Notes under the pieces: generated by a model | Told to the model about the DNA's origin: nothing | Databases searched by the model: none | The model's input: the letters and a program-made list of their open reading frames with translations, nothing else | Shown here: one piece after another, positions 5,193-9,730 of the stretch | How positions within the stretch are numbered: position 1 is the stretch's first letter | How the letters are laid out: the number at the start of each line of letters is the position of its first letter | Assembly (NCBI GenBank): GCA_021163005.1 | Contig: JAGGXP010000042.1 | Span: 1-44,994, forward strand | DNA from: Candidatus Aenigmatarchaeota archaeon | GTDB taxonomy: Archaea; Aenigmatarchaeota; Aenigmatarchaeia; QMZP01; JAFGSV01 | Length of the DNA stretch: 44,994 bases | Reading direction: 5' to 3' | Position numbers and translations under genes: made by a program

Positions 5193-5522
5193 ATGAAGTC
5201 CATAGGAAGGAGCCCTGACGCGGAAATCCTGTACAGCGCAGAGGGAAGGCTGCAGACGCGACTCCAGATGCCGGGAGACGTTTTGCGCAAGATGCTCTAT
5301 ATCGACGATTTTCTTCTCTTCTGCAATGACCAGCTGATGTTCGCGGAGCATTCCGGCGACATAGGCTATGCGAGCCAGCTGAAAAGACGCATAGATAAGT
5401 ACGAAGCTTATACCTTCCCTGATGACGAGTTGGAGGAAATTCTGGACCTCATGGAGTTCTCGGAAGCGCTCGAAAGAGCCTACAGCGAGTACATCAGCCG
5501 TAGAAAACAGGCCTCTTCGTGA
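5193..5522 (+). CDS. Hypothetical protein, about 109 residues
   Basis: Not recognised. The likely start is the ATG at 5193 (MKSIGRSPDAEILYS), about 25 nt after a tttaaa element at 5165-5170, so the transcript would be leaderless. The protein is acidic and predicted mostly helical (DVLRKMLYIDDFLLF, DELEEILDLMEFSEALERAY), with no signal peptide, membrane segment or Cys motif. It is divergently oriented to the aminotransferase gene and overlaps the 3' end of thrS by 29 nt tail to tail, so the two transcripts collide there. Codon use and composition match its neighbours, which supports a real gene. Confidence 0.6.
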   Translation: MKSIGRSPDAEILYSAEGRLQTRLQMPGDVLRKMLYIDDFLLFCNDQLMFAEHSGDIGYASQLKRRIDKYEAYTFPDDELEEILDLMEFSEALERAYSEYISRRKQASS

Positions 5523-7389
5523 GCAGCTTCGGCAGCGGCAGCGGCCTGTATGGGAACCCATCAGTCTGCTTCTTTATGTGCTCAACTATCTGCTTCGTTG
5601 TCATGTCCTTTACCTTTGAAGTCTCCCTGAACCTGACCGCGAGCTTCCCGCTCTTCAGTTCCTTGTCGCCGAGGACGACTATCATGTTCACCCACTCGCT
5701 TTCGGCATCGCGGATTTTCTTGCCGACTGATTCCATCCTGTCGTCCACGTCGGCGCGTATGCCTTCCTTCTCCAGATGCTCCGCGACCCTGAGAACGTCC
5801 CTGTGGAACTTCTCTGAAACCGGACACAGCCTTATCTGGGTGGGAGCCAGCCACAGCGGGAACACCGGATGCTTCCCTGCTCCCTGCTCCATGTGGTACT
5901 TCTCGAGAAGCGCGTACAACACCCTCTCTATTGATCCGCTCGGGGACAGGTGGAGTATCACCGGCTCCTTCCGGGTGTTGTCTGCATCGGTGTATTTGAG
6001 TTTGTAACGCGCTGCATTCTCCACATCTATCTGGTCTGTGGTAAGGCAGGCGGCCTTGTCAAGCGTGTCAACAAAATTCCACTCCTGCTTGAACACGAAA
6101 TAGAAGAACCTCTTGTCCCATATCTCCACGAGTGCGGGCTTTCCCCAACGCTTCACGGTCTCCTTGAGATGCTCCGGATGCTCGTCGTTGAACTCCTTCA
6201 CAGTCCTCACTGACAGTTGCAGTTCATCCAGAAGTCCCAGACCCTGCTGAATCTTCCTCGACACCTCGAACCTTGTCATCATCTCCTCCTTTGCCTGCGG
6301 TATGTCCCTGCATATGGCGTGGCAGTCCGGCATGGTGAACGCCCTGAGCCGCCTGAGCCCAGCGAGTTCGCCCCTCTGCTCCACCCTGAACGAGTACCTC
6401 GTCATCTCGTAGAGCCTGAGCGGCAGGTTCCTGTAGGATATGCTGGCGTCGTGGGTCATGAGGAACTGCCCGAAGCAGGCGGCAAACCTGAGGAACACTC
6501 TCTTGTTAGGCGTCTCTATCGTATACTGCCTTGCGGGGAACCTGTTGAGGTAGTCCTTGAGCGCCGGGTGCTCGTAGTCGTACATTATCGGGGTTTCGAC
6601 TTCCATGGCGCCGTACTTCGCCATGTTCATGTTCACCCAGTCCTCGAGCAGGCTCTTCACCAGCTTGCCCTTCGGGAAGTACCGGAAGTGGCCGGGGTCG
6701 CTTCCCTCCTCGTAGTCCACAAGCTCGAGCCTCTGCATGAGCTTTATGTGCGGCGGCTGCTCTTTCACTTCCCTGCTCTTGGCCATCTCGTACAGCACGA
6801 GCTTCTCCAGCTTCGGATATTTACTGAAGTCGAAACCTTTCACCTTGCCGTTCATCATGGAGATTTTGTTCATCTTGCCTGAAGGCTCCATGACGAACCA
6901 TTCAGATTTGAGCTCACCCTCCTTCCTGAGGGCCTCAGACATGTTCTCGTCGCCTTCCTCTGCCCCCTCTGATGTTATGTCCCTCGAAAGCTCTGCAAGC
7001 GGGTGGCCCTTGCATTTTATGTCAAACGCCTTGTACCAGCCGAACGGCGAGCGCTTAACCTTGAGGCCCTTCTCCAGAAGTTTCTCTTCGACCTTCTTCA
7101 CAACTTCGAGCCCTGTTGCCGGCGATGACGGCGTGTGCGACAGGTGGACGAACGGATAGATAACGATGTTCTTCGCCTTCACCTGCCCGTAAACATCAAG
7201 AATCTCCTTCACGGCATTGGATATTATCCTGCCTTTCGCCTTCTCGTCACTCTTCTCGACACTTGAGAAAACAACGAGCGCCTCCTCGACCCTCACGGGG
7301 TCCTTGCTTTTGATTTCTTCAGCACTCTTGATGGCCTTCTTCTTGGCCTGGTATTCTATAAAATCTGCATGTATAAGCAGTATCTTCAT
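5494..7389 (-). CDS. thrS: Threonyl-tRNA synthetase, archaeal type
   Basis: A 631-residue class II synthetase charging tRNA-Thr. The N-terminus (MKILLIHADFIEYQAK, about 1-140) is the archaea-specific editing domain related to D-Tyr-tRNA deacylase, not the bacterial TGS/SAD editing module. The catalytic core follows, with motif 2 around TRYSFRVEQRGELAGLRR, the zinc-ligand region RFAACFGQ and a motif 3 region LHLSPSGSIERVLYALLE. The C-terminal anticodon-binding domain ends near LTKRPVFYG. A strong Shine-Dalgarno (GGAGGTG) precedes the ATG, and a TATA element about 70-80 nt upstream implies a roughly 45-nt leader with the hairpin listed next. The gene overlaps the convergent hypothetical gene by 29 nt. 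Confidence 0.96.
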   Translation of the reverse strand: MKILLIHADFIEYQAKKKAIKSAEEIKSKDPVRVEEALVVFSSVEKSDEKAKGRIISNAVKEILDVYGQVKAKNIVIYPFVHLSHTPSSPATGLEVVKKVEEKLLEKGLKVKRSPFGWYKAFDIKCKGHPLAELSRDITSEGAEEGDENMSEALRKEGELKSEWFVMEPSGKMNKISMMNGKVKGFDFSKYPKLEKLVLYEMAKSREVKEQPPHIKLMQRLELVDYEEGSDPGHFRYFPKGKLVKSLLEDWVNMNMAKYGAMEVETPIMYDYEHPALKDYLNRFPARQYTIETPNKRVFLRFAACFGQFLMTHDASISYRNLPLRLYEMTRYSFRVEQRGELAGLRRLRAFTMPDCHAICRDIPQAKEEMMTRFEVSRKIQQGLGLLDELQLSVRTVKEFNDEHPEHLKETVKRWGKPALVEIWDKRFFYFVFKQEWNFVDTLDKAACLTTDQIDVENAARYKLKYTDADNTRKEPVILHLSPSGSIERVLYALLEKYHMEQGAGKHPVFPLWLAPTQIRLCPVSEKFHRDVLRVAEHLEKEGIRADVDDRMESVGKKIRDAESEWVNMIVVLGDKELKSGKLAVRFRETSKVKDMTTKQIVEHIKKQTDGFPYRPLPLPKLLTKRPVFYG

Positions 7390-7395
7390 TTTAGC

Positions 7396-7423
7396 ACCTC
7401 CTGCGCAGTCTTACACTGACTGC
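7396..7423 (-). promoter_or_regulatory. thrS leader hairpin resembling a tRNA-Thr anticodon arm, abutting the Shine-Dalgarno
   Basis: In the mRNA sense, GCAGUC (7423-7418), a 7-nt loop AGUGUAA (7417-7411) and GACUGC (7410-7405) form a perfect 6-bp hairpin. The loop has the size of an anticodon loop and UGU, a threonine anticodon, sits at loop positions 3-5, followed by AA as in many tRNA-Thr. Two nt later comes the Shine-Dalgarno GGAGGTG (7402-7396). The minus-strand TATA element at 7458-7468 puts the hairpin inside the leader. It could let ThrRS bind its own message and block translation. Confidence 0.55.
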
Positions 7424-7478
7424 TTTACCGCGGCTATTAGTACTTTACACCTTTTTCATTTTAAATATCATACCTGAT

Positions 7479-7496
7479 GTCTAGTGGTCAAGGATA
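7479..7496 (+). repeat. 18-bp intron-free copy of the tRNA-Gln D-arm
   Basis: The 18 bases gtctagtggtcaaggata equal 8411-8423 joined to 8453-8457, that is, the spliced D-arm of the downstream tRNA-Gln without its 29-nt intron. Nothing before or after it matches the tRNA. It lies just upstream of the endonuclease gene and overlaps the start of that gene's TATA-like region. Confidence 0.75.
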
Positions 7497-7523
7497 ATTT
7501 AAGTATTCGAACAAAATATGTTT

Positions 7524-8411
7524 ATGAGGGTAAGGCTGCTCAAAGGCAGGCAAAATGAACTTATAAAAAAAGCAAAAAATGGAAAAACATGGAAAGAATT
7601 GAGCATGGAACTCGGTCTAAATAGCGACTATTTGAGAACAGATATTTCTAAAGAAAAAGTTTTACTAAAACAAGAAACATTCAAGAAGCTTTGTTCCATG
7701 GCAAAAACGGACTTCTCAAAATTTGTGATTGAGATTCTGGATGATAACTGGGGGAAAAAGAAGGGTGGAAGGAATTCTCCAGGCAGAACAAAACATGTCA
7801 ATAAACCATCATTGTCAGAAGAACTTTCAGAATTGATTGGTATAATTCTAGGAGATGGAAGTCTTTATTGGAACAGCTCAAGAGGAGTTTATGCACTAAA
7901 GATCGCTGGAGATATTGAAAAAGAACAGGCATACCACGAAAAAATCGTAAAACCTATGATTGACAGACTTTTCGGTGTAACTTCAAAAATTGAAATTAAG
8001 AAAAATGAAAGATTCGTGTCTGAATTCAGCAAAGAGATAATAAAGATATTAGAGGATTTTGGTTTAAAGAGAGGTAACAAAAAACTGAACAATGTAGGAA
8101 TACCTTCTTGGGTAAAAGAAAATCCCAAATACTTAGCTTCATGTTTAAGAGGACTTATCGATACAGATGGTTCAGTTTTCAGGATGTCTAAGAAAGATCG
8201 CAATCTTGTCAGGATGTCCTTCAAGAATAAATCAGAAAAACTACTTACTGATACCCGTAATGCTTTCATTTACTTGGGGTTTAGCCCTTCAAAGATATTT
8301 GAAAAAGACCATTTTTTTATTTCAAAAAAGTCTGATATAAAAAAATACATCAGAGAGATAAATTTTAATAATCAGAAGCATCTAAGAAGAATAAGAGAAA
8401 CAGCCCCGTAG
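7524..8411 (+). CDS. LAGLIDADG homing endonuclease with N-terminal HTH-like region
   Basis: About 295 residues (297 from the ATG at 7518). The two LAGLIDADG helices are clear: LIGIILGDG (106-114 counted from 7518) and CLRGLIDTDG (209-218), each with the metal-binding acidic residue, so it is a single-chain double-motif enzyme expected to cut an 18-22 bp site. The first 75 residues contain KTWKELSMELGLNSDYLR, an HTH-like segment. The start at 7524 suits a TATA-like atttaagta about 25 nt upstream. The stop TAG (8409-8411) is made of tRNA-Gln bases 8-10, so the gene overlaps the tRNA by 10 nt and carries its promoter. It is much more AT-rich than thrS and dnaJ on either side, indicating recent arrival. 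It is not inside an intron, unlike most intron-encoded relatives. Confidence 0.88.
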   Translation: MRVRLLKGRQNELIKKAKNGKTWKELSMELGLNSDYLRTDISKEKVLLKQETFKKLCSMAKTDFSKFVIEILDDNWGKKKGGRNSPGRTKHVNKPSLSEELSELIGIILGDGSLYWNSSRGVYALKIAGDIEKEQAYHEKIVKPMIDRLFGVTSKIEIKKNERFVSEFSKEIIKILEDFGLKRGNKKLNNVGIPSWVKENPKYLASCLRGLIDTDGSVFRMSKKDRNLVRMSFKNKSEKLLTDTRNAFIYLGFSPSKIFEKDHFFISKKSDIKKYIREINFNNQKHLRRIRETAP

Positions 8412-8423
8412 TCTAGTGGTCAA

Positions 8424-8452
8424 ATTTCTCTATGTAAATGGAGAAAGACTAA
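8424..8452 (+). other. 29-nt noncanonical intron at the D-loop/D-stem border of tRNA-Gln (about 21/22)
   Basis: Exon GGTC (8418-8421) pairs with intron GACT (8447-8450) as the 4-bp central helix. The 3-nt bulges are AAA (8422-8424) and AAG (8451-8453), and the inner helix is TTTCTC/GAGAAA (8425-8430 with 8441-8446, allowing one offset base). Cutting after the second bulge base on each side gives GTGGTCAA joined to GGATAC, a normal D-arm. The same joined sequence occurs intact at 7479-7496. The outer helix is weak, as in many noncanonical introns. Confidence 0.85.
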
Positions 8453-8468
8453 GGATACTCGGCTCTGG

Positions 8469-8534
8469 TAACCTTTTGCGCATGCAGGCGCGCAAAACGT
8501 TAGCGAAAACACGCTGACGCATGAGGTTGGAGGA
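8469..8534 (+). other. 66-nt canonical intron at 37/38 of tRNA-Gln
   Basis: Exon CTCT (8463-8466) pairs with intron GGAG (8529-8532). The bulges are GGT (8467-8469) and GAA (8533-8535), the outer helix is the anticodon stem and the inner helix is AACC/GGTT (8470-8473 with 8525-8528). Inside is an 8-bp hairpin TTTTGCGC/GCGCAAAA. Bases 8470-8521 are homologous to part of the tRNA-Val intron. Confidence 0.9.
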
Positions 8535-8590
8535 ACCGGGGGACCCAGGTTCGAATCCTGGCGGGGCTATTGCCTATTTTTATCGAATTC

Positions 8591-9730
8591 TCACTGGCGT
8601 GAGCCCATTTCCTTCAGCCTCTCGAAGAAGCCCTTCTTTGTCTCAGGGATTTCGTCTCCCATGGTCTTCTTCAGGCGCTCGATAAGCTCCTTCTGCTCCT
8701 TTGTTATCTTTTCCGGCGTCTTCACGACAACCTTGACGAACTGGTCCCCTCTGCCGCGTCCGTGCAGCTTAGGCATGCCCTGTCCCTTCAGCCTGAAAAC
8801 GGTATGGCTCTGCGTTCCTGGTGGTATCTGCATCTTTGCCTTTCCCGTAATTGTGGGCACCTCAACCGAGCCTCCGAGCACAGCTGTGGGTATGCTTATC
8901 ACAGTCTTGCAGAAAAGGTCATTTTCATGCCTTTCAAAAACAGGATGCTCCCTTATGCTTATCACAACATAAAGGTCCCCTGTCTGGCCGCCGTTTTCAC
9001 TGGCTTCCCCCTGGCCGGCAAGCCTGAGATACTGGCCGTCATCCACGCCTGCCGGGACCTTGACCTCAACAGTCCTTGTCACCTTTTCCCTGCCCGTGCC
9101 TCCGCAGCTGCGGCAGGGCTTCTTTATCACGCGCCCTGTCCCGTGGCACATGCCGCACTGTCCTATGCTTACGGACTGCATGAATCCCATGCGCCTCACG
9201 GTCCTGACTTCCCCTGTCCCGCCGCATTTTGGGCACTTCTCTGCAGAAGAGCCGGGCTCCGCCCCTGTCCCGTTGCACACATGGCACTTCTCAAATCTTG
9301 GTACATTTATTTTCTTGCTGACCCCGGCAAATGCCTCGTCAAGGGATATCTCAAGGTCATAACGGAGGTCTGCCCCGGGCTCCGGGCCGCTCCTTCCGCG
9401 CCTGCCCCCTCCGAATATGCTGAATATGTCGCCGAAGCCGAAGTCGCTGAAGAGGTCCTCGAAGCTGCTGAAGCCCTGTGCCTGTCTGGGGTCGAACCCC
9501 ATGCCCTCGAGGCCGGCCTCGCCGAACTGGTCGTAGGCGCTGCGCTTCTCAGGGTCTTTCAGCACCTCGAATGCCTCGTTTATTTCCTTGAACTTATCTT
9601 CTGCGCGGGGGTCGTCCGGGTTCACATCCGGATGGTATTTTCTGGCAAGCCGCCTGAACGCCTTTTTTATCTCATCAGCTGACGCGTCCCTTCCCACACC
9701 CAGAATCTCGTAATAGTCTTTCTTGGCCAT
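8591..9730 (-). CDS. dnaJ: Chaperone DnaJ (Hsp40), full-length type I
   Basis: A 379-residue co-chaperone stimulating DnaK ATPase and delivering clients. Order: J-domain (1-70) with HPD at 33-35; Gly/Phe-rich linker (about 75-115, [13 protein letters not shown]); four zinc-finger motifs [24 protein letters not shown] and CRSCGGTG; then C-terminal beta-sandwich client domains with IPPGTQ. Nothing is missing compared with bacterial type I DnaJ. It is separated by about 6.4 kb from dnaK and grpE, and the Bat-like operon lies between. In archaea this trio is regarded as acquired from bacteria. A TTAAAT box and an AT-rich element precede the start; which serves as promoter is uncertain. Confidence 0.97.

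Follow-up and report, generated by a model that had tools for sequence, protein, structure and literature searches.

A LAGLIDADG endonuclease gene and an intron-bearing tRNA-Gln: a probable cassette inserted into an archaeal tRNA gene beside thrS

The gain of introns at odd positions in archaeal tRNA genes is an open question, and a recurring pairing of an enzyme gene with such an intron would bear on it. In the 44,994-nucleotide stretch of DNA analyzed here (the window), a LAGLIDADG gene runs into a tRNA-Gln whose D-arm is interrupted by an intron, and an exact 18-bp copy of the same D-arm in its spliced, intron-free form lies on the other side of the enzyme gene. Why should an uninterrupted piece of a tRNA stand there? 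A preliminary description of this locus had placed the copy upstream of the endonuclease gene, had formed the stop codon of that gene from tRNA bases 8-10, and had located the enzyme outside the intron. Each of these readings holds: the copy lies 5′ of an intact LAGLIDADG gene, the stop is the TAG at 8409-8411, which coincides with tRNA bases 8-10, and the gene ends at 8411, with the D-arm intron starting at 8424 (Table 1). The explanation that we favor, and regard as probable, is that the locus is a cassette, composed of a free-standing LAGLIDADG gene plus an entire tRNA-Gln whose D-arm holds an intron, that was inserted into a resident intronless tRNA-Gln beside thrS.

Table 1. Positions of features at the thrS–tRNA-Gln–dnaJ locus of the window
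Feature	Position	Strand	Basis
thrS (threonyl-tRNA synthetase), left neighbor	5494..7389	-	ORF; name from sequence and synteny
TATA-like TTTAAATA, now 5′ of endonuclease gene	7460..7467	+	sequence and flank alignment with G001/G002
ATACCTGAT, expected place of the original tRNA's acceptor end (AGCCCCGTA), now lost	7470..7478	+	flank alignment
18-bp copy of spliced intronless D-arm (tRNA bases 10-27)	7479..7496	+	sequence search and flank alignment
LAGLIDADG endonuclease gene, 297 aa, two motifs, stop inside tRNA	7518..8411	+	ORF, Pfam, alignment
TATA-like TTTTAATA within coding sequence, candidate tRNA promoter	8363..8370	+	39 nt upstream of tRNA
tRNA-Gln(CTG), exons 8402-8423, 8453-8468, 8535-8569	8402..8569	+	Rfam, fold
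D-arm intron, 29 nt, bulge–helix–bulge (GGTC/GACT central helix, 3-nt bulges)	8424..8452	+	junction test, fold
Anticodon-loop intron, 66 nt, canonical position 37/38	8469..8534	+	fold and sequence
dnaJ, right neighbor	8591..9730	-	ORF

With respect to the copy itself, the 18-mer GTCTAGTGGTCAAGGATA has a single match at ≤3 mismatches in the 45-kb window (shuffles gave 0.02), and this is also the sole match at that threshold in the 945-kb assembled genome. The D-arm of the adjacent tRNA escapes such a search because the intron splits its sequence; excision of the D-arm intron restores exactly GTCTAGTGGTCAAGGATA, corresponding to tRNA bases 10-27 counted from base 1. A second tRNA-Gln copy was considered as the source of the 18-mer and rejected, as the genome holds no further match at ≤3 mismatches. 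The tRNA was recognized by Rfam at 37.1 bits and was not detected by ARAGORN. Its precursor is predicted to fold (MFE) into a cloverleaf with two intron helices at -73 kcal/mol (z -5.3), and in the register GGTCAA^ATTTCTCTATGTAAATGGAGAAAGACTAA^GGATA the junctions of the D-arm intron show the two 3-nt bulges around a 4-bp helix that are typical of archaeal bulge–helix–bulge (BHB) introns. A group I intron, or an enzyme encoded within the intron, was ruled out: the intron is 29 nt long, and no Rfam intron match was found in 7300-8700. D-loop introns are also present in a Thr-like (L023) and a Ser/Leu-like (L027) tRNA of the same genome.

Monomeric LAGLIDADG homing endonucleases carry two motifs with catalytic acids and cleave a specific DNA site of 18-24 bp. 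The window enzyme matches the Pfam family LAGLIDADG_3 (PF14528) with an E-value of 6.7e-8 and retains both motifs intact, LIGIILGDGSL (containing D113) and LRGLIDTDGSV (containing D217); these motifs and the two catalytic aspartates are invariant across seven aligned family members. I-DmoI was recovered as a distant sequence match (E 8e-4). The enzyme is only ~40% identical to that of its own genus (G001, beside tRNA-Asp), in contrast to the 78% identity of thrS within the genus, and it is 40-41% identical to an enzyme from another family (G060, beside tRNA-Gln). The possibility that it is a viral gene was discarded, just three matches, all distant, having been found on viral contigs.

One suggestion of the preliminary description was that the copy is the displaced end of the original tRNA, and that relatives lacking the endonuclease might preserve an intron-free tRNA-Gln at the same flank. 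Among the relatives whose tRNA-Gln flank could be closely read, thrS adjoins tRNA-Gln on the opposite strand in two genomes of the same genus, G001 and G002 (thrS 78-79% identical by tblastn), and in the more distant G038 (53%), and the same gene order is found in G035 (32%). The tRNA-Gln of G001 (L093) is precisely the anticipated allele, with no intron in its D-arm, no enzyme, and no 18-bp copy at the same locus, as collaborative homing would require; G035 and G038 likewise have intronless D-arms. In G002, a D-arm intron is present, again with neither enzyme nor copy, and this intron occupies the same site as that of the window and resembles it (common TTTCTCTA and GACTAA). A relative that lacks the enzyme and nevertheless carries both the copy and the intron, which would have spoken against the proposal, was not found, as G002 has the intron only and G001 has neither.

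The thrS leaders of the window, G001, and G002 align as far as the TATA-like element, past which the window passes directly into the D-arm remnant and then into the enzyme gene; in the window's species, an empty site would be expected to read thrS-AGCCCCGTAGTCTAGTGGTCAAGGATA. This alignment and the empty sites in G001 and G002 therefore place the stump where the resident tRNA-Gln belongs and support the view that the stump is an end of this tRNA that was displaced; the TATA-like TTTAAATA is probably the former promoter of that gene. The spacer in the window is ~30 nt shorter than in G002, and the acceptor bases are absent too. A simple insertion should have left the acceptor part in the remnant, and the reading thus requires a subsequent deletion of both. 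On the right flank, none of the relatives searched showed dnaJ next to tRNA-Gln, and dnaJ itself was found in just 1 of 12; a search via the kinase neighbor of the G001 Asp cassette likewise revealed no empty site. The tRNA-Gln genes of G001, G002, and G006 (L093, L095, and L100) also contain a T-loop intron of ~31 nt that the window tRNA lacks, and the T-loop introns of G001 and G002 are very similar to each other.

The arrangement seen in the window recurs beside other tRNAs. Homologues of the enzyme were gathered from 156 genomes and one public contig (L032, from Woesearchaeota and the closest named relative encountered), the order-, class-, and phylum-level searches all covering the same ≤156 genomes. 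In all 14 of the closest members (~169 bits and up against family profiles, window included), the enzyme gene immediately precedes a tRNA of the same orientation, starts outside the intron, and is in this sense free-standing. The adjacent tRNA is Gln in seven (the window, G060, G015, G091, G115:C2, G147, and L032), Glu in three (G056, G119, and G129), Asp in two (G001 and G115:C96), Gly in G138, and probably Pro in G063; G115:C96 was inspected after the prediction had been written down, and it fits. The enzyme ends inside the tRNA or ≤5 nt from it, with the exception of G138. At that locus (L120), an open frame of 423 aa runs through the whole tRNA-Gly without a stop.

A D-arm intron is found in 13 of the 14 adjacent tRNAs, where a strict automatic BHB test placed the junction as expected in the window, G001, G091, L032, and G138, as well as in enzyme-free introns, and where the introns of G015, G056, G119, G129, G063, G115, and G060, which failed this test, were placed by eye against the expected D-arm. 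By comparison, 31 of 131 genes carry a D-arm intron at this site in a survey of tRNA-Gln whose automatic classification overlooks introns lying further 5′ in the D-arm. The one exception among the 14 is G147, with an intron in the anticodon stem. The intron site is identical (GGTCAA/GGATA or GGCCAA/GGATG) in the window, G015, G091, and L032. This recurrence, with 14 of 14 enzymes upstream of a tRNA and 13 of those tRNAs bearing the intron, supports the earlier suggestion that enzyme and tRNA form a unit. Related enzymes also lie upstream of an intronless tRNA-Ser(GCT) at L041 (G012) and L046 (G022), with stop codons that fall within the tRNA or on its initial bases.

If cassettes displace resident tRNAs, fragments of these may persist elsewhere. 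The 250 nt preceding each enzyme gene were therefore scanned for similarity to the 5′ end of the associated tRNA, with the 250 nt ahead of each of 127 tRNA-Gln genes that lack the enzyme as controls, none of which scored above 9. The window remnant scores 18 (18/18). At G063, a remnant scoring 11.5 (13 of 14 bases, 0/127 controls as high) is preceded by a TATA-like box, and at the Asp locus of G001 the score is 9 (1/127 controls as high). Scores of 8 (5/127 controls as high in each case) were obtained for L032 (Gln), where a TATA-like box stands at an appropriate distance, and for G108, where the remnant spans 8 nt and the upstream stretch resembles the intron of its own tRNA (alignment score 17, shuffle maximum 12). 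We rate two of these 5′ tRNA remnants as strong, one as moderate, and two as suggestive. Those of G063, G108, and L032 are acceptor ends rather than D-arms, and the counterpart of the D-arm copy at the G001 Asp locus has diverged. In most family members, no remnant was found within the 250 nt upstream of the enzyme gene. A universal D-arm copy acting as a built-in transfer repeat was ruled out by its absence from most relatives. A distant enzyme relative at L128 (G068:C9, ~2139-2260) precedes a tRNA-Thr(CGT) that is intact and intronless, and ~19 nt beyond this tRNA lies a 3′ remnant from a second tRNA-Thr (GGGGTTCGAATCTCCCTCGAGGCTT), the mirror image of the 5′ remnant in the window.

The preliminary description also held that the tRNA now uses a promoter inside the endonuclease gene. 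The distance of 39 nt between TTTTAATA and the tRNA falls within the range of enzyme-free tRNA-Gln genes, and a TATA-like 8-mer (7/8 or 8/8) is present within the enzyme coding sequence, 45-32 nt upstream of the tRNA, at 10 of the 14 enzyme loci. The same match was obtained for 81 of 127 enzyme-free genes and for 11 of 127 background stretches. In the enzyme genes, these 8-mers often fall in codons for a conserved F-N-N/S-P stretch. Such findings argue for the claim while stopping short of proof, and the tRNA-Gln is probably transcribed at present from the TATA element inside the enzyme gene.

Intron and enzyme are nonetheless separable, as follows from G002 and the other enzyme-free cases. 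Specifically, the enzyme lies upstream of only 2 of the 31 intron-bearing genes in the tRNA-Gln survey (the window and G091), the other 29, G002 included, being without it, and upstream of none of the 100 intronless genes; G015, which was scored outside this survey, has both enzyme and D-arm intron. The enzyme implies the D-arm intron, and the D-arm intron does not imply the enzyme. With 29 of 31 such introns unaccompanied, the enzyme is therefore at most one route to introns of this kind, or a temporary partner of them. Loss of enzymes after homing would leave introns unaccompanied in this way, and the counts also allow other routes of intron gain.

Taken together, these observations are consistent with a form of collaborative homing. 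The enzyme would cut the uninterrupted D-arm of tRNA-Gln, and repair by homology would introduce the enzyme gene together with a new, intron-bearing tRNA 5′ half that becomes joined to the tRNA 3′ half already in place. The repaired tRNA would be functional, its 5′ end overlapping the enzyme gene, and the original 5′ half, displaced upstream, would decay to the 18-bp D-arm stump. In the new tRNA the BHB intron would split the recognition sequence and leave the enzyme unable to cut, the host splicing endonuclease would excise this intron from the RNA, and transcription would probably proceed from the TATA element within the enzyme gene. The cassette would in this way be mobile and protected from its own nuclease, and enzymes might subsequently be lost, leaving the D-arm intron alone. 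As to specificity, Gln, Glu, and Asp, which make up most of the tRNAs served, have a common D-arm sequence, which suggests the D-arm as the cleavage site. The stump may have survived because its flanking acceptor bases were lost and it no longer forms a full site. Since this reading predicts the tRNA, the position, and the DNA sequence to be cut, it is directly testable.

Other origins for the arrangement were weighed against this one. The copy could be a retained functional site, serving as a live target or as an operator through which the enzyme regulates its own synthesis, in the manner of I-TevI, which autoregulates by operator binding. In keeping with such a role, the copy is exact though its flanks have diverged, and it sits between a TATA-like element and the start codon at 7518. 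However, an exact and complete target would be cut by the enzyme, most relatives have no such copy, the G001 Asp counterpart has diverged, and the remnants at G063, G108, and L032 derive from acceptor ends; the position of the copy is moreover the one expected for the resident tRNA, and we consider a retained site unlikely. The enzyme gene might instead have inserted alone upstream of a tRNA that already bore its intron, with the copy an unrelated duplication. G002, with its window-like D-arm intron and no enzyme, provides a starting point for such an event, which would nevertheless leave unexplained both the intron-free copy at the ancestral tRNA position and, at other loci, the enzyme ends inside tRNAs and the 5′ remnants; we judge it very unlikely. 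Finally, the reverse complement of the copy falls in the thrS leader, where its minus strand might act as an antisense or guide RNA against tRNA-Gln or as a leader element of thrS. No box C/D boxes were seen by eye and no Rfam match was found at the copy, and the same place in relatives is simply occupied by a tRNA gene, making this reading extremely improbable.

A rival of a different type is suggested by the closest precedent in anatomy, the tRNA-Thr(GGU) of Caldiarchaeum subterraneum, where the 1.87-kb insert has a 545-bp repeat region and its 813-bp ORF adjoins the tRNA (Sugahara et al. 2012, PMC3293823). The old tRNA persists upstream as a 5′ fragment, an intron has been gained at 24/25, and insert-free forms coexist; the insertion was ascribed to a pNOB8-like integrase, on the basis of an SVMProt recombinase call and dinucleotide composition (PMC3293823). 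By analogy, the insertion in the window could be the work of a site-specific integrase encoded by a plasmid or virus that carried a tRNA fragment, with the endonuclease gene as a passenger. The shared anatomy of 5′ tRNA fragment, insert with one same-strand gene adjoining the tRNA, and intron-gained tRNA favors this model, as does the usual choice of tRNA genes as integration sites. Against it, nothing but the endonuclease gene lies between stump and tRNA in the window, it is the same enzyme family, rather than an integrase, that recurs beside tRNAs of at least five types, and the enzyme of the Caldiarchaeum insert was assigned by SVMProt alone, a weak method. An integrase origin thus appears improbable to us. 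The two systems differ in that the Caldiarchaeum ORF was called a DNA recombinase and concerns one tRNA type, whereas the gene here is a LAGLIDADG gene of ~0.9 kb with relatives beside many tRNA types; the 813-bp ORF could nonetheless be of the same kind as the window enzyme. Elements of the SSV/pNOB8 type similarly carry part of a tRNA, restore the tRNA, and displace a fragment, but do so with an integrase, whereas the predicted DNA-cutting enzyme is the only gene in the insert of the window.

For the cassette reading, the nearest functional parallel is F-CphI with the psbA intron of cyanophage S-PM2, for which the term collaborative homing was coined (PMC6083498). In both cases a free-standing endonuclease stands beside an intron thought to interrupt and protect its target, so that the pair could spread together. 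F-CphI, for which cleavage was demonstrated, is an enzyme with an Endo VII motif acting with a group I intron on a phage protein gene, whereas the window combines a LAGLIDADG enzyme, a BHB intron, and an archaeal tRNA, with cleavage predicted from sequence. SegB of phage T4 is likewise a free-standing homing endonuclease among tRNA genes and drives inheritance of the tRNA region (PMC2988022 and references therein), but it is a GIY-YIG enzyme of a phage, involves no introns, and has its target in a tRNA intergenic region. The literature searched, which included few subscription papers, yielded no description of a LAGLIDADG gene paired with an archaeal tRNA that carries an intron. If the reading is correct, the pair joins an enzyme that attacks intronless tRNA genes to an intron that blocks the enzyme, and collaborative homing extends to cellular genomes and to introns spliced by proteins. 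That related cassettes adjoin other tRNA genes suggests a role of such enzymes in the spread of odd tRNA introns. In its broadest form, the proposal that small archaeal cassettes of this composition replace resident tRNA genes and drive the gain of non-canonical introns by tRNAs of Woesearchaeota-like archaea, and possibly of other groups (Caldiarchaeum included), seems to us as likely as not.

I-DmoI and other LAGLIDADG enzymes of archaeal rRNA introns share both the nuclease family and the BHB type of intron with the window locus, but they are encoded within the intron, whereas the window enzyme lies outside it and upstream of the tRNA. Further relatives of the window enzyme (L015, L019, L050, L051, L054, L059, and L125) appear to end within rRNA sequence, as in rRNA introns, and the tRNA-side and rRNA-intron enzymes would therefore seem to constitute one family.
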